64,000 bases of DNA from an uncultured Rhodopila sp. (GTDB lineage Bacteria; Pseudomonadota; Alphaproteobacteria; Acetobacterales; Acetobacteraceae). The first letter of the stretch is position 1, and each line of letters begins with the position of its first letter. The DNA is taken from positions 1-64,000 of the forward strand of contig NZ_CAJATU010000082.1 of NCBI RefSeq assembly GCF_903944925.1, read 5' to 3'. Position numbers and translations under genes: made by a program. Positions 1,190 to 54,307 of the stretch are shown one piece after another. The notes under the pieces were generated by a model. It did no database searches and was not told the origin of the DNA. It saw only the letters and a list, made by a program, of their open reading frames with translations.

Positions 1190-2968
1190 CTACCGAACCC
1201 GGCCCAAAGCCGCCTTGATTTGATCCATATTTTCCAGCGCCGCCTGGTGCCCCGCCGCAATCACCTTCTCATGTGCGTTCCAGTCGAAGATCCCGATATC
1301 GCCCACCGCCGGCTTCAGCAGCACGTCGCGGCCATCGCGGATCGGGTTTGCGGCGGTGTCGCTGCCGATGGTGCCCACGCGCCACAGTAAATCCAGGATA
1401 CCCGGCAACCCCGTTTCGCCACCCGATCGCGCATCCCGTTCCATCGAGCCAACATCCACCGCGATCACCGAAGCCACCCCGAACCCGTGAATCCCTTCGA
1501 TCGGCATGTTGTTCAGCACGCCGCCATCGACATAAACCGCATTCCCTTCCAGTATCGGCGGACAAATCCCCGGAACAGCAGTCGTCGCCCGCAGCCAGGT
1601 CACCAGCGGCCCGGTCCGGTGCACTGCCGAAACGCCCTCGGTAATATTCGTCGAGACGCAGAACAGCGGTATCGGCGCATCCTCCATCGCCATGGTCCCA
1701 AAGCAATGACCAAGTGTCCTGACAAACGCCCGCTCGGAATAAAGCGCCGTCCAGGGCACCGCGAAATCGGTGAATTTCCGCCGGTTGAACGCCATGGCCA
1801 GCGCCCGAACCGTGGTCGTGAGATTCCACTCCAAAGCGAACACCGCAGAAACGATCGCGCCGACACTGGTGCCGCCGACAGCGTCGATCTGGATGTCATG
1901 CTCTCGCAGCGCCTGGATGACGCCGATATGCGCCATCGCCTTCGCACCTCCGCCGGACAACACCAAACCCAGCCCGCGCTCCGCGATCAGACGACTCGCC
2001 CGCTCAATATCGGCCGAAGACCGAATGTGAAAATGCCGGCTCGGGTTCACCGCCGCCAGCCAACCCGTGGTCTTACCGGGAACGATCGCGTCCTGCCACA
2101 GCAGCATCAATGCCAGCGGCGTGGTATGCGGCACGTCCAACCGAACCGTCCCCGGTTCGCCATCGCCGTTCGCCACAAGCACGATGCGGTCGCTCTGGCG
2201 GACGCAGAATCGCGTCCAGGGCGTCGGATCGCCGTCCGCCTGCAGCAGAACGAAATCAGAATGCTTCTCGATATCGGAGAACCACGCCGACGTCCGTTCA
2301 GACTTTTGCTTGCCGGCAACAATAACCACCGTCCCGAAAGCCTCCAGGCACGCAGCGATCTTCTGCACAATCGGCCGGATGTCGGTCGCTTCATCCGCCG
2401 GCACAAAGCAAAACGTGTGACACTTCGGCAGCCTCGCCACAGCCGCCTGGCCGCGCTGCAACCGTTGCACCGCCCCGGAACAGACCGCCAGCAAAACACC
2501 ATGGCAACGCGCCGCCGCGGCATGCAGATCGGCCTTCGATATGCGCAAAACTTCGCTGTTGCGCAGCGCCCGCACGCCGACACTGTGCGCTTCGCCGGTA
2601 AAGAAGCCGACATCCCCGATGACATCGCCTGCCCCGAACCGATCGAGCATCGCCCGGCCGCCGCCTGCCGCGTGATAGGCGCCGAACTGGCCGGTCATGA
2701 CGATATAGACCGCCTCCGGCTGCTCGCCTTCCCAAATCAACGCAGTCCCGGCGGGAACCGACATCAACGAGCAGATTGACGTCAGCGCCTCGATCGACTT
2801 GCCATCCGCCAACGGAAACGCCCCGCGCAGATCGCGGGCACGCTCGGCCCGCGCCTTGTCCTCCTCGGCGCGCCGCGCCGAGGACAGCGGGTGACGATAC
2901 AGCCAGCCGTCCGGAGTCCGCGCATGCAGCTTGAGGCTGTTCAAAAGACGAGCGGTCCTGTCCGACAT
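1190..2968 (-). CDS. Cyclic-nucleotide-binding domain plus patatin-like phospholipase (NTE/RssA type)
   Basis: About 592 residues. Roughly residues 45-150 form a cNMP-binding domain (EGEQPEAVYIVMTGQFGAY followed by GDVIGDVGFFTGE). The C-terminal half is a patatin lipase with the oxyanion motif GGGAKAMAHIG at about 339, the nucleophile elbow GGTSVG (Ser near 368) and the catalytic DGG near 481. The architecture matches bacterial neuropathy-target-esterase-like serine hydrolases acting on lysophospholipids. I chose the ATG at 2968 because GAAGGGTCTG gives a good Shine-Dalgarno; the ORF track extends to a GTG at 3010. It lies downstream of the nitrilase-like gene on the same strand with 176 bp between. 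Confidence 0.87.
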   Translation of the reverse strand: MSDRTARLLNSLKLHARTPDGWLYRHPLSSARRAEEDKARAERARDLRGAFPLADGKSIEALTSICSLMSVPAGTALIWEGEQPEAVYIVMTGQFGAYHAAGGGRAMLDRFGAGDVIGDVGFFTGEAHSVGVRALRNSEVLRISKADLHAAAARCHGVLLAVCSGAVQRLQRGQAAVARLPKCHTFCFVPADEATDIRPIVQKIAACLEAFGTVVIVAGKQKSERTSAWFSDIEKHSDFVLLQADGDPTPWTRFCVRQSDRIVLVANGDGEPGTVRLDVPHTTPLALMLLWQDAIVPGKTTGWLAAVNPSRHFHIRSSADIERASRLIAERGLGLVLSGGGAKAMAHIGVIQALREHDIQIDAVGGTSVGAIVSAVFALEWNLTTTVRALAMAFNRRKFTDFAVPWTALYSERAFVRTLGHCFGTMAMEDAPIPLFCVSTNITEGVSAVHRTGPLVTWLRATTAVPGICPPILEGNAVYVDGGVLNNMPIEGIHGFGVASVIAVDVGSMERDARSGGETGLPGILDLLWRVGTIGSDTAANPIRDGRDVLLKPAVGDIGIFDWNAHEKVIAAGHQAALENMDQIKAALGRVR

Positions 2969-3144
2969 CAGACCCTTCATCAACGCCGAATCGTAAGCGC
3001 AGTAACTCACTCAGGTATAGCGGGTTCGCAGTATGAGAAGCCACGACGAACCCGAGGTCCCAATTGTTCGTTATCAACAGCGGATCGCCCGCCGATCGGC
3101 GGTCAATAAAGCGTGGTTCGGCCCGGCTGCCAGACCCCGAGGGC

Positions 3145-5630: not shown

Positions 5631-5644
5631 TTGATCTGCGTCAA
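5631..5644. promoter_or_regulatory. FNR/FixK-type box upstream of bchE (one mismatch)
   Basis: TTGATCTGCGTCAA matches the consensus TTGAT-N4-ATCAA with one difference (G for A at the start of the right half-site). Its centre is about 63 bp before the bchE GTG and lies in the divergent mnmE-bchE gap. FnrL-type control of bchE is known in purple bacteria, and an anaerobic switch would suit an oxygen-sensitive radical SAM cyclase. Binding is inferred. Confidence 0.65.
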
Positions 5645-5700: not shown

Positions 5701-7407
5701 GTGCGTATCCTGCTCATTCATCCGAACTACCATTCCGGCGGCGCCGAGATCGCCGGCAACTGGCCGCCCGCCTGGGCCGCTTACCTCGCCGGATCGCTGA
5801 AAGCCGCCGGCTACAGCGATCTGCGGTTCGTCGACGCGATGACCAACAACATCTCGGACGATGACCTGCGCGACATCATTAAGGCCGAACAGCCCGATAT
5901 TGTCGGTTGCACCTGCATCACCCCGTCGATCTACAAGGCCGAGCGGGTGTTGCAGATCGCCAAGGAGGTCGCGCCGAAAACGGTGACCGTCCTCGGCGGC
6001 ATCCACGCCACGTTCATGTACCAGCAGGTCCTCACCGAGGCGCCATGGATCGACACCATCGTCCGCGGTGAGGGCGAGGAGATTCTGATCAACCTCGTCC
6101 GCCTGATCGACCAGGGCCGCTGGCCAGCCGATCGGCATGAGGTCAAGGGGCTGGCGTTTACGGAAACGCTGGCGGAGGGCGCGCAGATCGTCGCCACCGC
6201 GGCGGCGCCCACCATCAAGGACCTGGACTCGATCGAAGCCGACTGGGGCATCCTGGAGTGGGATAAATATCGCTACATCCCGCTGAACTGCCGCGTCGCG
6301 ATCCCGAACATGGCGCGTGGCTGTCCGTTCACCTGCTCCTTCTGCTCGCAGTGGAAGTTCTGGCGCGACTATCGCTTCCGCGACCCGATCAAGGTCGTGG
6401 ACGAGATCGAGACACTCTATAAGAAGTACGATATCGGCTTCTTCATCCTCGCGGACGAGGAACCGACGATCAACCGCAAGAAGTTCATCCAGTTCTGCGA
6501 GGCACTGATCGAGCGCGGGCTGAACGAAAAGGTTCTGTGGGGCATCAACACCCGCGTCACCGACATCTTGCGTGACGAGGAATACCTGCCGCTATACCGC
6601 AAGGCCGGCCTGATCCACGTGTCGCTCGGCACCGAAGCCGCGGCGCAGTTGAAGCTGGACCTGTTCAACAAAGAGACGAAAATCTCCGACAACAAGAAGG
6701 CGATCCAGCTTCTGCGGGATGCCGGCATCGTTGTCGAAGCCCAGTTCATCGTCGGTCTGGAGAACGAGACCGCCGAGACGCTGGAAGAGACCTACCGCAT
6801 GGCGGTGGAATGGGGTCCCGACCTGGCGAACTGGTCGATGTATACGCCGTGGCCGTTCACGTCGCTGTTCCAGGAGATGAAGGACAAGGTCGAGATCTTC
6901 GACTTCGACAAGTACAATTTCGTTACGCCGATCATGAAGCCCAATGCGATGGATCGCAGTGAGCTGCTGGATCGGGTGATGAACAACTACCGCCGCTTCT
7001 ATATAAAGAAGGCTCTGTTCCACTACCCGTGGGCCGGCAAGGGCGCGCGGCGGCGCTATCTGCTGGGCTGCCTGAAAGCCTTCCTCAAGTCCGGTTTCGA
7101 ACGCAAGTTCTACGACCTCGGCAAGGTCGGCTATTGGGGACCGCAGTCGAAGAAGAAGGTCAACTTCCACTTCGACGAGGGCCGCAAGCTGGCTGAGGCG
7201 CAGACCAGCGACTGGATTGCCGCGGCCGATACCTCGCGCAAGGCGAAGCCGTTGATTCCGTTGTCGGCGGTTTCCGCTTGCGGCGGCGGACGCGACCAGA
7301 TGGACGCAATCGAAGCCAGCGGTGCCAAGTCGCCGGCGGTGGTGATGGCGTGCGGTGGCGGCACCGAGCAGATGGCCGAGACCGATGACGCAGCCGGCGC
7401 GGATTGA
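5701..7407 (+). CDS. bchE: Anaerobic Mg-protoporphyrin IX monomethyl ester oxidative cyclase BchE
   Basis: 568 residues. BchE is a radical SAM enzyme that forms the fifth (E) ring of bacteriochlorophyll without oxygen. A B12-binding-like N-terminal domain opens with [20 protein letters not shown], and the radical SAM cluster motif CPFTCSFC has cysteines at about 208, 212 and 215. Length and order fit BchE rather than generic B12-radical SAM proteins. The start is GTG with GGGAGG about 8 bases upstream. The C-terminal tail carries two similar motifs, ACGGGRDQM and ACGGGTEQM. It overlaps or abuts bchJ, so the two probably form an operon, preceded by a FNR-like box. Confidence 0.93.
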
Positions 7408-44716: not shown

Positions 44717-44791
44717 CGCCCCGGGGCTGTGGCTGAAGGCGCTTCGGGCGTATCATCCTCGTCGCGGACCCGGATAGCGCTCGCGTTGGGA

Positions 44792-44814
44792 ATGGCCGGG
44801 ACACACCCGGCCAT
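44792..44814. repeat. Second copy of the REP-like palindrome core
   Basis: ATGGCCGGG-ACACA-CCCGGCCAT, a 9-bp inverted repeat, followed by GAC. It matches the right arm of the 41669-41739 element with a single base change in the loop. It sits in the gap between tspO and the phosphoketolase gene. Confidence 0.65.
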
Positions 44815-44881
44815 GACGGAGAGTACGGGGGCTGGCTCGGACGACACTGGCGCCAGCCAACCAATCAGGAGAAATCCCGAC

Positions 44882-47251
44882 ATGGACCAGCAAACAGCGA
44901 AGCCGCTCAGTGCCGCTCAGGTTGAGCGCATGAACCTGTGGTGGCGCGCCGCCAACTACCTGTCCGTCGGGCAGATCTACCTGCTGGCCAACCCGCTGCT
45001 GCGCGAGCCGCTGACGATGGATCACGTCAAGCCGCGGCTGCTCGGCCACTGGGGCACCACGCCCGGTTTGAATTTCCTCTACGTGCACCTCAACCGGATC
45101 ATTGCGGAACGCAACCTTGACCTACTGTTCATCGCCGGCCCCGGCCACGGCGCACCCGGTGTCGTCGCCAGCACCTGGCTGGAGGGCACCTACAGCGAGA
45201 CCTACCCGAACGTTTCGCGCGACGCCGAGGGCATGCACCACCTGTTCCGCCAGTTCTCCTTCCCCGGCGGTATCCCCAGCCATGCCGCGCCGGATACCCC
45301 CGGCTCGATCCATGAGGGCGGCGAACTCGGCTACTCGCTGTCGCATGCCTACGGCGCGGTGCTCGACAACCCCGACCTGATCGCCGCCTGCGTTATCGGC
45401 GACGGAGAGGCCGAGACCGGGCCGCTGGCAACCTCCTGGCACGGCAACAAGTTCCTCGACGCGGCGCAGGACGGGGCGGTGCTGCCGATTCTGCATCTGA
45501 ACGGGTATAAAATCGCCAATCCGACGGTGCTCGCGCGGATCCCGGATGACGAACTGCGCGCCCTTATGACCGGTTATGGCTATGAGCCGATAGAGGTTGC
45601 AGGCCACGATCCGGACGCGATGCACCAGGCGATGGCAGCGGCGATGGACCGTGCGTTCGATTCCATCCGCGCCATCCAGCAGGCGGCGCGCGGCGGCAAG
45701 CCCGGGCGGCCGCGCTGGCCGATGATTATTCTCCGCAGCCTGAAGGGCTGGACCGGCCCGAAGACCGTCGATGGCAAGCCGGCCGAGGGCAACTGGCGCG
45801 CCCACCAGGTCCCGTTCACCATGGAAAAGCCGGAGCATCTCGGGCTGCTGAACGACTGGCTGCAAAGCTACCGTCCGGAAGAACTGTTCGACGACGCCGG
45901 CCGCCCGATCGAGGCGATCACCGGCCTGAGCCCCGCCGGCGAGAAGCGCATGAGCGCCAATCCGCACAGCAATGGCGGCCTGCTGATGCGGCCGCTGCGC
46001 ATGCCGGATTACCGGGACTACGCGGTAAAGGTGCCCGCGCCCGGCGCGGTGGACGGGGAATCGACCCGGGTGATGGGCGCGTTCCTGCGCGACGTGATGA
46101 AGGCCAATGCCGACAGCCGCAATTTCCGCGTGTTCGCGCCGGACGAGAACAATTCCAACCGGCTGAACGACATCCTGGACGCAACCAACCGCGCCTGGGA
46201 CGCCGAGACGGTGGCGAACGACGACCACCTCGCACCCGACGGGCGGGTGATGGAGATCCTCAGCGAGCACACCTGCCAGGGCTGGCTGGAGGGCTACCTT
46301 CTTACAGGCCGGCACGGGTTGCTGTCCTGCTACGAGGCGTTCATCCACATCGTCGATTCGATGGTCAACCAGCACGCCAAGTGGCTGAAAAGTTCGCGGG
46401 CAATCCCATGGCGGCGGCCGATTTCATCGTTGAACTACCTGCTGACATCACATGTCTGGCGGCAGGACCATAACGGGTTCAGCCACCAGGACCCCGGGTT
46501 CATCGACCACGTGGTGAACAAGAAGGCCGACATCGTGCGGGTCTATCTGCCGCCCGACGCGAACACCCTGCTCTGGGTGACGGATCATTGCCTGCGAAGC
46601 TGGGACCGGATCAACGTCATCGTCGCCGGCAAGCAGCCGGAGCCGCAATGGCTCGATATGGACTCGGCGATCAAGCACTGCACCCAGGGCATCGGCATCT
46701 GGCCGTGGGCGAGCAACGACCAGGACTCCGAGCCTGACGTGATCATGGGCTGCGCCGGGGACGTCCCGACGCTGGAGGTGATGGCGGCGACGGACCTGCT
46801 GCGACAGTTGCTGCCCGGCCTGAAGCTGCGGGTGGTGAACGTGGTCGACCTGATGACGCTGCAACCGAAATCCCAGCACCCGCACGGGCTGTCGGAGCAG
46901 GATTTCGATGCGCTGTTCACGCCCGGCACCCCGGTGATCTTCGCCTATCACGGCTACCCGAGCCTGATCCACCGGCTGGTCTACAAGCGCACCAACCACG
47001 ACAACTTCCATGTCCGCGGCTTCATGGAGGAAGGCACCACGACGACACCGTTCGACATGGTGGTGCGCAACCGGCTGGACCGCTTCCATCTGGTCGCCGA
47101 CGTGATCGACCGGGTGCCCGGCCTGGCCGCACGGGCGGTCTATGTGAAGCAGGCGATGCGGGACAAGCTGATCGAGCATGAGCAATATATCGTGCGAGTC
47201 GGCGCCGACATGCCGGAGGTCGCGGACTGGCGCTGGCCGGGCAAGGCGTGA
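44882..47251 (+). CDS. Phosphoketolase (Xfp family)
   Basis: 789 residues. Phosphoketolase uses thiamine diphosphate to split xylulose-5-phosphate (and often fructose-6-phosphate) to acetyl phosphate. Signatures include [28 protein letters not shown] and the ThDP-binding [20 protein letters not shown]. The C-terminal domain is intact, ending [11 protein letters not shown]. The ATG at 44882 has CAGGAGAAAT upstream; the ORF track starts 153 bp too early. No acetate kinase is adjacent. Confidence 0.95.
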
Positions 47252-48359: not shown

Positions 48360-51300
48360 TCAACGGGCCTCAGGGGGAGCCGCCGGCTCCCCTTGCGCCG
48401 TGGGTGAAGTTGCCGTCGGATCGCACCAGTCCCGTTCGATTTCCTGCGTTAGCTCATGAAGCGCTTGCTCAAGGGCCCTGAACTTTGCGGCTGCGCACTC
48501 CAGCGTTTCAGACACCTCAACCTCACGGGCAAGGGCGGTCGCCCGTTCTGCGCCGAACTGAAGACATAGGCCTTTGATGCTGTGGGAAATGCGTTTGACG
48601 GCGGCCAGGTCGGAACCGCCGAACGCCACACGCATATTGATCAGGCTGTCGTGTGTGTGATTGGCCAACTCGGCGAGCAAATCGGCAAACACTGGCGGCG
48701 GTAGCATGTCCCGGGTTTCCTGTAGGCGGCTGACGTTGATGACGGGAAGCGCCTGGACAGCGACGGATGCCGGAACGGAACATGGCCGCTGCGCAGGATC
48801 GCGCGTCAGCACCGCGTCCACTTCATTCCACTCGATCGGCTTGGTCAGGAAGTCGGTCAGCCCCGCCTGCATGTAAGCCGCGCGGTGCTCGCTGACGGCA
48901 TCGGCGGTCAGCGCGACGATCGGGATATCGCACAGCGGCGGCGATAGCGCCCTGATACGCCGCGTCGCCTCGACGCCATCCATCGTTGGCATCTGCATGT
49001 CCATCAGGATGATATCATAGCCTCCGGCGGACGCCGCTTCGACCGCCTGCCGGCCGTCCCTGACCAGGGTCACCTGATGGCGGCGATGTTCGAGGCCGAG
49101 TTTCACGATCATGCCGTTGATCGTATTGTCTTCAGCGACGAGCACCTTGAGCGGCCTGACGACATGGCTTGCCAACGAATCGGCCAGGAGATCGGCTTCA
49201 ACGCCGGGTTGCACGACGCAGGTGAACCAGAACAACGCACCCTCGCCAGGCTCACCGTGGGCGCCGATATCACCGTCCATCATCGTGATGAGGCGCTTGC
49301 TGATCGCAAGGCCGAGGCCGGTGCCGCCGAACTTGCGGCTCGTGCCGGCATCGGCCTGGGCGAAGGGTTCGAACAGGCGCCCGATATCCCCGCTGGACAG
49401 GCCGATCCCGGTATCTTCGACCTCGAACCGCAGGCGGAGATGATCTGCGGCCTGCTCCTGGCGGAGCCGGATGGCGATCTTGCCATTCGCGGTGAATTTC
49501 ACCGCGTTGCTGACGAGGTTGCCCAATACCTGCCTGATGCGGATCGGGTCGCCGATGACCAGCAGCCGCGTCGTGCCGCCGGTATCGAGAGTGAGATCGC
49601 AGCCATTCTGTTGCGCCACGGGGCCGTACAGGCGAGCCGTTTCCGCGGCAACCGCCACAACATCGAAGCAAACCCGCTCCAGCGTCAGCCGATCGGCTTC
49701 GATCTTTGAATAGTCCAGGATGTCGTTGAGGATGGTCAACAGGGTCTTGGCCGAGGCCTGCATGGTATCGAGATACGAACGCTGGACCGCATCAAGCGCT
49801 GTCAGTGACAGGAAATCCGCCATGCCGATGACGCCCGTAATCGGCGTGCGGATTTCGTGGCTCATCATCGCCAGGAACGAGGATTTGGAGCGGTTGGCCA
49901 CCTCGGCCAGATGACGGGCCTCATTCACCTGGCGTTCCGTCTCCTTGCGTTCGGTCAGATCGAAGAACTGGATCAGCAGGTGAGCCTCGCCGCGCATGCG
50001 TATCGGCAAAATCAGGCAGTCGCACCAGACCTCTTTGCCGGCGAGCGATGTAACGTGGATTTCGGCCTGCTGCCGGCGGTTCGTTGCGAGGCTGTGCAGG
50101 CAACGTTCCAGCAGTCCCGATGTCCGCCAGGACTCGATGTCGCGGAAATTGCGCGACATCAGAACCTCATCCGATCCACCGACGAGGTTGGTGTAGGCTT
50201 TGTTGACCACGATGCATTGGCCTGATTCGAGATAGACACCCATGGCGACGGGGGAGGATTGCAGGATCGTCTCGTTGAACCTCACCAACTCGGCAAGGCT
50301 TTGTCGTTCCAGGGTCAGGTCCGCCGTGCGTTCGTCCACACGCGTGGCCAGCGCCGCCCGCTCGGCGGCGAGGTTCCGCAGCGCCGCGTTCCGCTGCCAG
50401 GCCAAACGGGCGACCAGAACCAGCATCACCGCCAGCATGACGATGATTGCCGCGATGCTCAGGATCACAGGCCGGTACAGGACCCATACGCTCGGGACGC
50501 GGTAGCGGATGATGGCATCCGCGGCAAGCGAGGCGCCGGTCAGGTGCCAGCGCTCCAGTTGGCGCCAATCGTAGCTCGTGCGGAGGTTGCCTTCCGGCGG
50601 CGGCGCGTGCCCGAGGATCAAGGCGCCGATACTGCGGCCAACCAGTTCGTGACTGAGCATGTAACCGCCGACGATACCGCTGCCGAGATGCGATTCCCAT
50701 TGGCTGAACACCGGCACCGACGCCAGTTCAGCCAGACGCGCATCGGCGGCCGGCGGTCGCACGAAGCCGCCGGAGCCATCGTTAAAGATCAGCAGGGAGT
50801 AGATCATCGACCCGGCCGCCAGGGTCGGCGCGAGCGCCAGCACGTCCTTGAACGGCACGGCGGTCAGATCCTCAACCGCTATCGGCCCCGGAAGCGTGGC
50901 CACGCCGCTCCGGAATGCCGCCAGTTCAAGCCGACCGAACGCGCTCCCGCTGTCGCCGGTCAGATAGATCTTCCCGGCACCGGTCAACGCCAGCGCCTCC
51001 TTGACCGACCGGGCGTAGTCAAACCGGGAGACCAGGAACTCCCCGCCGTCGTCGAGCCTTTTCAGCGGGGCGACCCAGTCGGGCACCACGTCCGCATAAA
51101 TCCGTCTCGCGGCGGGAAACACCTCCCGGCTGCGCGCGATGGCGCTGGCGCCCGGCCATGAGACGCCGACGACAAAGTCGAAACGGGTCTGGCCGTATTT
51201 CTCGCGGACCAGGTCGCGCAGCCAAACGTCGGCGTCCGCCGCGTCGAGGCGCGCACCGTCGAGGAACTCGAAGAAGACAGTGCTGCCGCCGGCGCGAAAG

Positions 51301-51638
51301 CCGATGACCGCGTCGAGTCCGTCTTCCATCTCGGTCTGGCTGCGGGCATCCTTGTCGAGCGGCATGACGAACAGGATGTTCAGGGTTCGCTCGGCTCCGG
51401 CGCGTTCCAAAGGTCCGCCGCCCGCTTGCGAGCCATCCGCGGCCCTTGTCTGGGTCCCCACGATACCGGCGCGCGCCTGCCTCAGGACGGCGGTAAAATC
51501 GCGGGCGTGTCCAGCGAGTACGCCGGCGGCGATCAGGCTTGCGACGGCGATGAGCCAGGATACCAGGATCGTCTTGAACCGGCGCGGCTGTTTATCGCCG
51601 AACGGCCCGCCATCGCGATGATGGTCTTCAACGTCCAT
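48360..51638 (-). CDS. Hybrid histidine kinase with substrate-binding-like sensor, PAS, receiver and HPt
   Basis: About 1092 residues. A membrane helix (residues 21-41) leads into a periplasmic part that resembles an ABC-type substrate-binding protein (NILFVMPLDKDARSQTEMED, RFDFVVGVSW). A second helix (about 390-415) is followed by PAS (FNETILQSSPVAMGVYLESG), HisKA (AMMSHEIRTPITGVIGM), HATPase_c (DTGIGLSSGDIGRLFEPFAQ), a receiver (ILMDMQMPTMDG, LTKPIE) and an HPt domain with ISHSIKG. It can run a complete phosphorelay. I used the ATG at 51638; the ORF-track TTG is nine bases upstream. It diverges from another kinase. Confidence 0.92.
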   Translation of the reverse strand: MDVEDHHRDGGPFGDKQPRRFKTILVSWLIAVASLIAAGVLAGHARDFTAVLRQARAGIVGTQTRAADGSQAGGGPLERAGAERTLNILFVMPLDKDARSQTEMEDGLDAVIGFRAGGSTVFFEFLDGARLDAADADVWLRDLVREKYGQTRFDFVVGVSWPGASAIARSREVFPAARRIYADVVPDWVAPLKRLDDGGEFLVSRFDYARSVKEALALTGAGKIYLTGDSGSAFGRLELAAFRSGVATLPGPIAVEDLTAVPFKDVLALAPTLAAGSMIYSLLIFNDGSGGFVRPPAADARLAELASVPVFSQWESHLGSGIVGGYMLSHELVGRSIGALILGHAPPPEGNLRTSYDWRQLERWHLTGASLAADAIIRYRVPSVWVLYRPVILSIAAIIVMLAVMLVLVARLAWQRNAALRNLAAERAALATRVDERTADLTLERQSLAELVRFNETILQSSPVAMGVYLESGQCIVVNKAYTNLVGGSDEVLMSRNFRDIESWRTSGLLERCLHSLATNRRQQAEIHVTSLAGKEVWCDCLILPIRMRGEAHLLIQFFDLTERKETERQVNEARHLAEVANRSKSSFLAMMSHEIRTPITGVIGMADFLSLTALDAVQRSYLDTMQASAKTLLTILNDILDYSKIEADRLTLERVCFDVVAVAAETARLYGPVAQQNGCDLTLDTGGTTRLLVIGDPIRIRQVLGNLVSNAVKFTANGKIAIRLRQEQAADHLRLRFEVEDTGIGLSSGDIGRLFEPFAQADAGTSRKFGGTGLGLAISKRLITMMDGDIGAHGEPGEGALFWFTCVVQPGVEADLLADSLASHVVRPLKVLVAEDNTINGMIVKLGLEHRRHQVTLVRDGRQAVEAASAGGYDIILMDMQMPTMDGVEATRRIRALSPPLCDIPIVALTADAVSEHRAAYMQAGLTDFLTKPIEWNEVDAVLTRDPAQRPCSVPASVAVQALPVINVSRLQETRDMLPPPVFADLLAELANHTHDSLINMRVAFGGSDLAAVKRISHSIKGLCLQFGAERATALAREVEVSETLECAAAKFRALEQALHELTQEIERDWCDPTATSPTAQGEPAAPPEAR

Positions 51639-52009
51639 CGGCTTCAAAGCTCCGTCCCGGCGTCAACCAACGACCGGCCGGTTCCGGTAGGGGCCTGACT
51701 TCGATCCAGTATCGCCGCCCTTTGCCGCCGGGACGACGACGCAGCCAGCCGTGACCGGAAGCCGGAACGATACTCATACAGTTGGCTTGTCGCAAGAGTT
51801 AGATTCTCATTGCGGCCGGCGGATGTCGGCGGAACCGGCCCGCATCGGGCAACCGTCAGGCAATCCGCGGCACCGCAAGTTGCTTTCCAAAGTAACCGCT
51901 TCGGCCCGGCGTTTGATGCAAATCAAGGCCGGCCGGCGCAAACCGCCGCAAGACCATGACATCCTGCGATAAAACCGGAGCAATCCCCGGCGGTGGAGCA
52001 AGCAGCCGA
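51639..52009. other. 371-bp divergent intergenic region between two sensor kinases
   Basis: No gene is seen. It must hold the promoters of both kinases. Its only clear element is a perfect FNR/FixK-type box at 51913-51926, nearer the plus-strand kinase. Short GC palindromes (GGCCGGCC) follow the box. Confidence 0.7.
51913..51926. promoter_or_regulatory. Perfect FNR/FixK-type box (TTGAT-N4-ATCAA)
   Basis: TTGATGCAAATCAA matches the consensus in all ten specified positions. Its centre is about 90 bp before the ATG of the plus-strand kinase, at a distance where activation is possible if the transcript starts about 40 bp downstream. It is about 275 bp from the start of the minus-strand kinase. 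Regulation by FnrL or FixK is inferred. Confidence 0.7.
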
Positions 52010-54307
52010 ATGAAACGCCTCCTGACGCGGCTGTTGCTGGTCATGTCTGTCGCCATGCTGCCGGCGCTGGGCTTCCAGATCTACACCGAACACGAGGCGC
52101 GCCAAACCCGTGCGTTGCTGGTGAGGGACGAAGCACTCAGTCTGGTACGTCTGGTCAGCGGCGAGCAAAACCGCATCATCGAAGGCGCCGAGCAGGTGCT
52201 GACCACCATCACAGGCGCTCCGGCCGTGCAGGACAGCGACACCGAGCGGTGCCACCGCCTGCTCGCCAACCTGGTCGAGCAGTCGCCTCGCTACAACAAC
52301 GCACTCGTCGTGCAACCTGACGGCCATATCCCGTGTGCGGCCCACCTGCTGGACCCCTCGATCAACGGAGCCGATCGGCCGTATTTCCGCGAGGCGCTGC
52401 GAACCGGAGACTTCGTGCTTGGCGAGTATACGATTGGCCGCGGCACGGGACTGCCGACGATTCATATAGCCAAACGGGTCATCGGCACTGACGGCAGGAT
52501 CATCGGCGTCGCCGTCCTCGCGCTCAACATCGGTTGGCTCTCCGACCAGGTCGAGCAGCTCAGCCTGCCGGCGGGAGCGATCGTGACGATCACCGACCGC
52601 AATGGCACCATCCTGGTGCGCCGCCCGGGACAGGCGCGCTTCTCGGGCACGCAGACACCGGGCGATAGCCGCTTCCTCCTCGACGGCAAAGAGATCGGGT
52701 TCGCCGAGATGAAGAGCCTGGATCAGGGCCGCCCGGTGATGGTTGCGTTCGCCCCGCTGGCCGTCGAACCAATAGGCTTGAGCATCCGGGTCGCGCTCGA
52801 CCGGGACATCACCTTCGCCGCCCTGGTCCGGGCCAACTGGATCGGCCCAGCATTGATAATGCTCGGCATCATGCTGGCGCTGGCCACGGCCGCGCTGCTT
52901 GGATCTCGGCTTATCGGCCGCCCCATCGGCCGGCTCATCGGGGCGGCCGAGAGCTGGCGTGGCGGCAATCTCGGGTCCCGCACCGGGCTGGGCGGGGAAC
53001 AGAGCGAATTCGGGCGGCTCGGCACCGCGCTCGATGCGATGGCGGCGGCGCTGGGCGAGCGCGAGGCGGAGCTTCGCCGGCTGAACACGGGTCTGGAGAA
53101 TCGGGTCAGCGAGGAGGTCGCTGCGCGCGAGGCGGCGCAGGCGCGGGCCGCACAGGCCGAACGCATGCAGGCGCTGGGGCAGCTTGCCGGCGGCGTCGCG
53201 CACGATTTCAACAATGTGCTTCAGGCCGTGGAGGGTGCGGCCCTGCTGATCGAACGCGAATCCAAAGGGCAGGAGCGCATCAACCGCCTGGTGCGCCTCG
53301 CGCTGGAAGCCACGGCACGCGGCGCCTCGGTCACTCGCCGGCTGCTCGCGTTCGGCCGCCGCGGCGACCTGCGCGCCGTGGCGATCGATGCCGATGCGCT
53401 GCTCGCCGGGCTGCGGGAACTGCTCGCCCATACGCTGGGCGCGGGGACGGAAGTGTCGGTCGTGGCCGAGCCGGGTCTCCGTCCGATCCTGGCGGACAAG
53501 GGACAGCTTGAAACCGCGCTGGTGAACCTGGCGACGAACGCCCGCGACGCCATGCCGAAGGGTGGCGCGCTGAAGCTGCGGGCCGCGGCCGACATCATCG
53601 AGGCGAACACCCCGGCGCATCCGGCCGGCCTGGCGCCGGGCCGCTATGTCCGGCTGACCGTCGCCGATACCGGATCGGGGATGGATGCCGCCACGCTTCT
53701 GCATGTTGGCGAGCCGTTCTTCACGACCAAGAAAACCGGCGAAGGGACCGGTCTCGGCGTGGCCATGGTGAAAGGCTTCGCGGCGCAGTCCGGCGGCGGG
53801 GTGCGTATCGAAAGCAGCCCGGAGCAGGGCACCGTGGTGTCGCTCTGGCTGCCGCAGGCTGATACCGGCGCTGTCTCGCGCGCGGCCCTGCCGGTGGCAC
53901 CGGAGGCGATCAGTCCGGCGGGAGCGATCCGGTTGCTGCTGGTGGACGATGAGAAGCTGGTGCGGGATGTGCTGGCGGAGCAGTTGGAGGACGAGGGGTT
54001 CAGCACCGTGACCGCCTCGAATGCCGCCGAGGCCCTGGCGCTGCTCGATGCCGGCGAAGCGGTGGATCTGCTGGTGTCGGATTTTTCGATGCCGGGCATG
54101 GATGGGCTTGCCCTGATCCACGCGGCGCAGCGGCGGCGGCCGTGCCTGCCGGCGGTGCTGCTGACCGGGTATTCAGGGGATGGCGTCGCACTGGCGCTGG
54201 GGACGAATGTGAGCGGGAAGATCGTCTTGCTGCGCAAGCCGATCCGGGTTGAGGACCTGGCTGACCGGGTGCATGTGCTGCTGACGGCGGTGGAGAAGGT
54301 GGGGTGA
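52010..54307 (+). CDS. Hybrid histidine kinase with double-CACHE sensor and receiver
   Basis: About 765 residues. An N-terminal membrane helix (LLLVMSVAMLPALGFQIY), a periplasmic double-CACHE sensor (YFREALRTGDFVLGEYTIG, VAVLALNIGWLSDQV), a second helix (LIMLGIMLALATAALLG) and a HAMP-like linker with a coiled coil. The kinase core has GGVAHDFNNVLQAVEG (phospho-His) and GTGLGVAMVKGFAAQSGG. The receiver has LLLVDDEKLVRD, VSDFSMPGMDG and LRKPIRV. No HPt. The ATG at 52010 is used; the ORF track begins 54 bp earlier. A perfect FNR-type box lies upstream. Confidence 0.92.
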   Translation: MKRLLTRLLLVMSVAMLPALGFQIYTEHEARQTRALLVRDEALSLVRLVSGEQNRIIEGAEQVLTTITGAPAVQDSDTERCHRLLANLVEQSPRYNNALVVQPDGHIPCAAHLLDPSINGADRPYFREALRTGDFVLGEYTIGRGTGLPTIHIAKRVIGTDGRIIGVAVLALNIGWLSDQVEQLSLPAGAIVTITDRNGTILVRRPGQARFSGTQTPGDSRFLLDGKEIGFAEMKSLDQGRPVMVAFAPLAVEPIGLSIRVALDRDITFAALVRANWIGPALIMLGIMLALATAALLGSRLIGRPIGRLIGAAESWRGGNLGSRTGLGGEQSEFGRLGTALDAMAAALGEREAELRRLNTGLENRVSEEVAAREAAQARAAQAERMQALGQLAGGVAHDFNNVLQAVEGAALLIERESKGQERINRLVRLALEATARGASVTRRLLAFGRRGDLRAVAIDADALLAGLRELLAHTLGAGTEVSVVAEPGLRPILADKGQLETALVNLATNARDAMPKGGALKLRAAADIIEANTPAHPAGLAPGRYVRLTVADTGSGMDAATLLHVGEPFFTTKKTGEGTGLGVAMVKGFAAQSGGGVRIESSPEQGTVVSLWLPQADTGAVSRAALPVAPEAISPAGAIRLLLVDDEKLVRDVLAEQLEDEGFSTVTASNAAEALALLDAGEAVDLLVSDFSMPGMDGLALIHAAQRRRPCLPAVLLTGYSGDGVALALGTNVSGKIVLLRKPIRVEDLADRVHVLLTAVEKVG

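Follow-up and report, generated by a model that had tools for sequence, protein, structure and literature searches.

Low-oxygen regulons built on the palindrome TTGAT-N4-ATCAA have been described for two types of regulators. In Caulobacter and in Bradyrhizobium/Rhodopseudomonas, the boxes are used by FixK, a protein free of a cysteine cluster and encoded in a fixL-fixJ-fixK cluster, with hemN and cyd-type genes among its targets. In Rhodobacter and other alphaproteobacteria, the same box serves FnrL/FNR. The core FNR regulon includes hemN, OmpW and a bchE-type cyclase (PMC2908626 Table 1). In Caulobacterales, cyd and hemN are under FixK control (PMC4999443), as are bacteriochlorophyll genes in R. 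palustris TIE-1 (PMC3050613). In view of these target lists, a link between pigment synthesis and the motif is already known in kind. The genome studied here has in common with the FixLJ-FixK systems the gene cluster, the FixK without cysteine cluster, the boxes and the hemN and cyd-type targets. It differs from them by a dCache hybrid kinase and other targets absent from the published core lists compared, and by its host, an acetobacteraceal phototroph. With the FnrL/FNR systems it shares the box and the hemN, OmpW and bchE-type cyclase targets but, unlike them, no FNR with four cysteines (4-Cys FNR) was found in the genome. In a poorly studied, acidophile-related phototroph, a Rhodopila-like purple bacterium, a membrane kinase of the chemical-sensing kind thereby joins genes for bacteriochlorophyll, haem and respiration under a common predicted control by oxygen.

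The stretch of DNA analysed (the window, 64 kb) belongs to a 7.0-Mb genome, G000, whose assembly is 99.4% complete. The genome of a sister species, G007, was used for comparison. The preliminary description of this DNA reported an exact match to the consensus between two divergent sensor kinases, and both the sequence and the open reading frames agree with this (Table 1). The box TTGATGCAAATCAA is the sole perfect TTGAT-N4-ATCAA in the window, as compared to a chance mean of 0.01 (100 dinucleotide shuffles). The genome-wide scan suggested in that description returned 25 perfect boxes versus 2 sites with the reversed control pattern, and the excess over control was also present across the genus. 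The one-base variant TTGAT-N4-GTCAA was enriched in the genome as well (27 versus 2). The palindrome therefore occurs beyond chance and, conservation left aside, the background for any single site is about 2 in 25. TTGATGCAAATCAA is a real and probably functional FixK box, ordinary in kind.

Table 1. Features at the kinase locus and at bchE, numbered from the first base of the window
Feature	Position	Strand	Basis or remark
Perfect FixK/FNR box TTGATGCAAATCAA, predicted	51913..51926	.	exact TTGAT-N4-ATCAA palindrome
Orphan hybrid sensor histidine kinase (rightward), TM-dCache_1-HAMP-HDFNN-type H box-HATPase-receiver	52010..54307	+	Pfam; start inferred from G007
Divergent hybrid kinase (leftward), periplasmic sensor part-PAS-HisKA-HATPase-receiver-Hpt	48360..51638	-	Pfam; ORF from TTG 51647, ATG at 51638
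Candidate -10 element GATAAA (GGTAAT in G007)	51968..51973	+	inferred from G000-G007 alignment
Intergenic block with the highest conservation, resembling a promoter of the leftward kinase, TTGCGA-N17-TATCGT	51767..51800	-	85% identity with G007 versus 67% overall
Near-perfect FixK/FNR box TTGATCTGCGTCAA before bchE	5631..5644	+	one base off consensus
bchE, anaerobic Mg-protoporphyrin monomethyl ester cyclase	5701..7407	+	TIGR02026, 795 bits (cut-off 481)

Conservation of the box was examined in G007, which has the only close ortholog of the rightward kinase found with a box (85% protein identity). There, the box TTGATCCAGATCAA stands at the aligned position, in front of this one ortholog. Both half-sites are intact and 2 of the 4 spacer bases differ from TTGATGCAAATCAA, in an intergenic region only 67% identical overall. 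At this identity, the chance of retaining all ten bases is about 2% by our own arithmetic, with sites assumed independent. A stronger argument than the retention of a single site is that the box belongs to a conserved set. G007 has 19 perfect boxes, and for 16 of them the similarity of the encoded proteins identifies a matching box locus in G000. The match is strong for 15, in all of which the box itself aligns, and weak for one (G007 L236 with G000 L011, 65%). As partner of the G000 bd-oxidase box, L236 was rejected, the flank identity being 47%. The leftward divergent kinase is also collinear in G007. No perfect box was found upstream of three more distant relatives of the rightward kinase (55-58% identity; G000:C20, G007:C61:73706 and G024:C181).

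The genes adjoining perfect boxes in G000 include hemN (TIGR00538) and ubiT, both above the NCBIfam cut-offs, as well as genes for bd oxidase subunit I, OmpW and a CBB3-type cytochrome. These five agree with the published alphaproteobacterial FNR/FixK regulons (PMC2908626, PMC4999443). Further genes at perfect boxes code for a dicarboxylate transporter and a BadF-type activase, and one for a second hybrid kinase. With hemN, bd oxidase, OmpW and UbiT, the genes at the boxes make up a textbook low-oxygen regulon, and the rightward Cache kinase probably belongs to this otherwise conventional set. The FNR-like box that the preliminary description placed before bchE is real. It has one mismatch, lies 56 bp ahead of the bchE start, is identical in G007 and G019, and is present with an altered spacer in G002. 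As a side observation, the second hybrid kinase (PAS-HisKA-HATPase-receiver) has its perfect box at its start (L140:5659-5672; G000:C168:14658), and this box is kept in G007 (L234) despite flanks only 55% identical.

The regulator was sought with profile searches of the G000 assembly for all proteins with a cNMP-binding domain or a Crp-type HTH. Only one Crp/Fnr protein, L016 (G000:C39:29565-30254), carries the TTGAT-reading helix ETVSR. Six CRP-family genes have a full HTH, and L017 to L021 were rejected as regulator because their helices differ from ETVSR. L016 has the Crp/Fnr fold and the E-x2-SR recognition helix, ETVSR being aligned to that of FixK2 (4i2o), its best solved-structure relative (E 4e-49), and it is devoid of the four Fe-S cysteines of FNR. 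Its best NCBIfam family is Caulobacter FixK with 233 bits, below the equivalog cut-off of 300 of a model made for the Caulobacter protein. L016 is encoded together with fixL and fixJ. The FixJ protein scores above the NF006900 cut-off. The FixL score is below the NCBIfam equivalog cut-off; its PAS domain, predicted to bind heme, can be aligned to the heme-PAS domains of solved FixL structures, including the R-x-HD-x-Y segment. Between fixJ and fixK lies a single-domain receiver (L224:10340-10768) with a weak likeness to FixT (46 of 150 bits) and a possible role in feedback. A cyclic-nucleotide-binding domain is also found within the window, at 1190-3010, in a patatin-like protein of the neuropathy target esterase type.

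The 99.4%-complete G000 assembly was searched with both profiles and proteins, and no FNR/FnrL-type protein with an N-terminal cysteine cluster was found. When the 4-Cys FNR of G007 was used as a query in G000, the only matches were FixK and weaker proteins. The earlier designation of fnrL as the regulator gene thus has to be corrected to fixK, since the right helix occurs only in FixK, beside fixL and fixJ. Therefore, an fnrL mutant would have no evident target gene, and fixK or fixL is the gene to be mutated instead.

We consider it likely that TTGATGCAAATCAA is a FixK box which activates the rightward Cache hybrid kinase at low oxygen through FixL, FixJ and FixK. In this scheme, the heme-PAS kinase FixL would phosphorylate FixJ when oxygen is low and FixJ would switch on fixK. 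The TTGAT-N4-ATCAA boxes of some 25 promoters or more would then be bound by FixK, among them those of hemN, the bd oxidase, ompW, ubiT, bchE and the rightward Cache kinase. At the last of these, FixK would bind TTGATGCAAATCAA and activate from about -61, giving oxygen control of the kinase. The elements of this scheme shown by the sequence are the box, its enrichment and conservation, the known low-oxygen genes in the regulon, and a fixL-fixJ-fixK cluster in a genome where no 4-Cys FNR was detected.

The position of the box was considered with respect to the two kinase starts. The longer open reading frame of the rightward kinase spans 51956-54307. Translation of the G007 sequence from the upstream ATG would end at a stop codon at the equivalent of the 52010 start, and this start has a strong ribosome-binding site there; the start is therefore more likely ATG 52010 than 51956. 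With ATG 52010, the box centre is 90 bp upstream of the start codon, a position that favours the rightward Cache kinase as the probable target. If GATAAA serves as the -10 element, the box centre would lie near -61, a usual activating position for the Crp/Fnr family. This value is a guess because a sigma-70 promoter is not recognisable beside the box: a consensus scan of the intergenic region gave no match, the candidate elements at 51968 and 51767 included. Regarding the protein, the rightward kinase has in common with the CckA-type and PRK13557-type hybrid kinases the HDFNN phospho-acceptor region, the HATPase and the C-terminal receiver. It is unlike CckA in having a dCache_1 sensor, and its CckA score of 264 bits is far below the equivalog cut-off of 1000. 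No output response regulator was found among the immediate neighbours of either kinase. Near the leftward kinase, a phosphoketolase gene is present (44729-47251); phosphoketolase is on a published FixK core list, and no TTGA-N6-TCAA box was found near this gene.

The box sits in an intergenic region common to both kinases, and it could control the two of them, or chiefly the leftward one, a reading we regard as unlikely. The normal working range of Crp/Fnr activators is about -40 to -90. About 275 bp separate the box from the start of the leftward kinase (51638-51647), and about 150-160 bp from the block at 51767-51800. This block, the best-conserved part of the region, is plausibly the leftward kinase's own promoter. 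The leftward kinase is thus probably not the main target. Of the oxygen regulon first described as joining pigment synthesis to two kinases, the genome-wide regulon including bchE is retained, and so is a box well placed for the Cache kinase; the part concerning the leftward kinase is not, given its distance and its own promoter-like block.

With activation of the rightward kinase kept as the preferred reading, the regulator itself could be an FnrL-type 4-Cys FNR, missed by the draft assembly, rather than FixK. In favour of such a protein, the sister species G007 and G024 carry a 4-Cys FNR besides FixK, and FNR and FixK read one common motif (PMC2908626). Moreover, a clean empty FNR site was not obtained, the neighbourhood of the G007 gene not being collinear with the tested G000 contig (the contigs are collinear over 5 kb only, with the FNR gene outside). 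An assembly of such completeness, in which neither profile nor protein searches find the gene, makes this improbable. We give still less credit to a palindrome arisen by chance, or decayed, and without function. The reversed-pattern control does allow about 2 of the 25 perfect sites to be background; however, the box lies between genes and ahead of a start, and G007 has an independently perfect one at the corresponding site. FixK acting at a functional box upstream of the Cache kinase is therefore the reading we retain.

The distribution of the two regulators was then compared across the genus. In the MnmE tree, the fixK orthologs (at least 53%) all fall within a single clade of the genus (branch 100/99), in which G022 is without one. 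In most other species examined, sixteen of them, a 4-Cys FNR with the N-terminal cysteine motif is present. Both regulators occur in G007 (L241/L242) and G024 (L289). These two are closest to the window's species, which has only FixK. The surroundings of fixK were read in G000 and G007, where fixL and fixJ adjoin it. A 2016 survey assigned only FnrN to the Rhodospirillales, and it has been proposed that Caulobacterales gained fixLJ-fixK, took over the FnrN sites and then lost FnrN (PMC4999443). Displacement of FNR by FixK was likewise proposed in another study (PMC2908626). The set of species studied here looks like a second instance of such a takeover, its direction being unproven from one gene tree and draft genomes. 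Tentatively, and with slightly more doubt than confidence, we suggest that within one acetobacteraceal genus FixLJ-FixK, acting through boxes that stayed unchanged, took control of what was ancestrally an FNR regulon. G007 and G024 would have been caught with both regulators and the window's species with FixK only, the Cache kinase having been drawn into the regulon in one lineage. These few close species, intermediate state included, are a set suited to the study of the FNR-to-FixK switch that has been proposed for Caulobacterales. Finally, at one box pair (L005/L239), G000 and G007 do not differ over 200 bp of flanking sequence, and the adjoining protein is 98% identical; as compared to the 67% of the kinase intergenic region, this possibly reflects a recent exchange.
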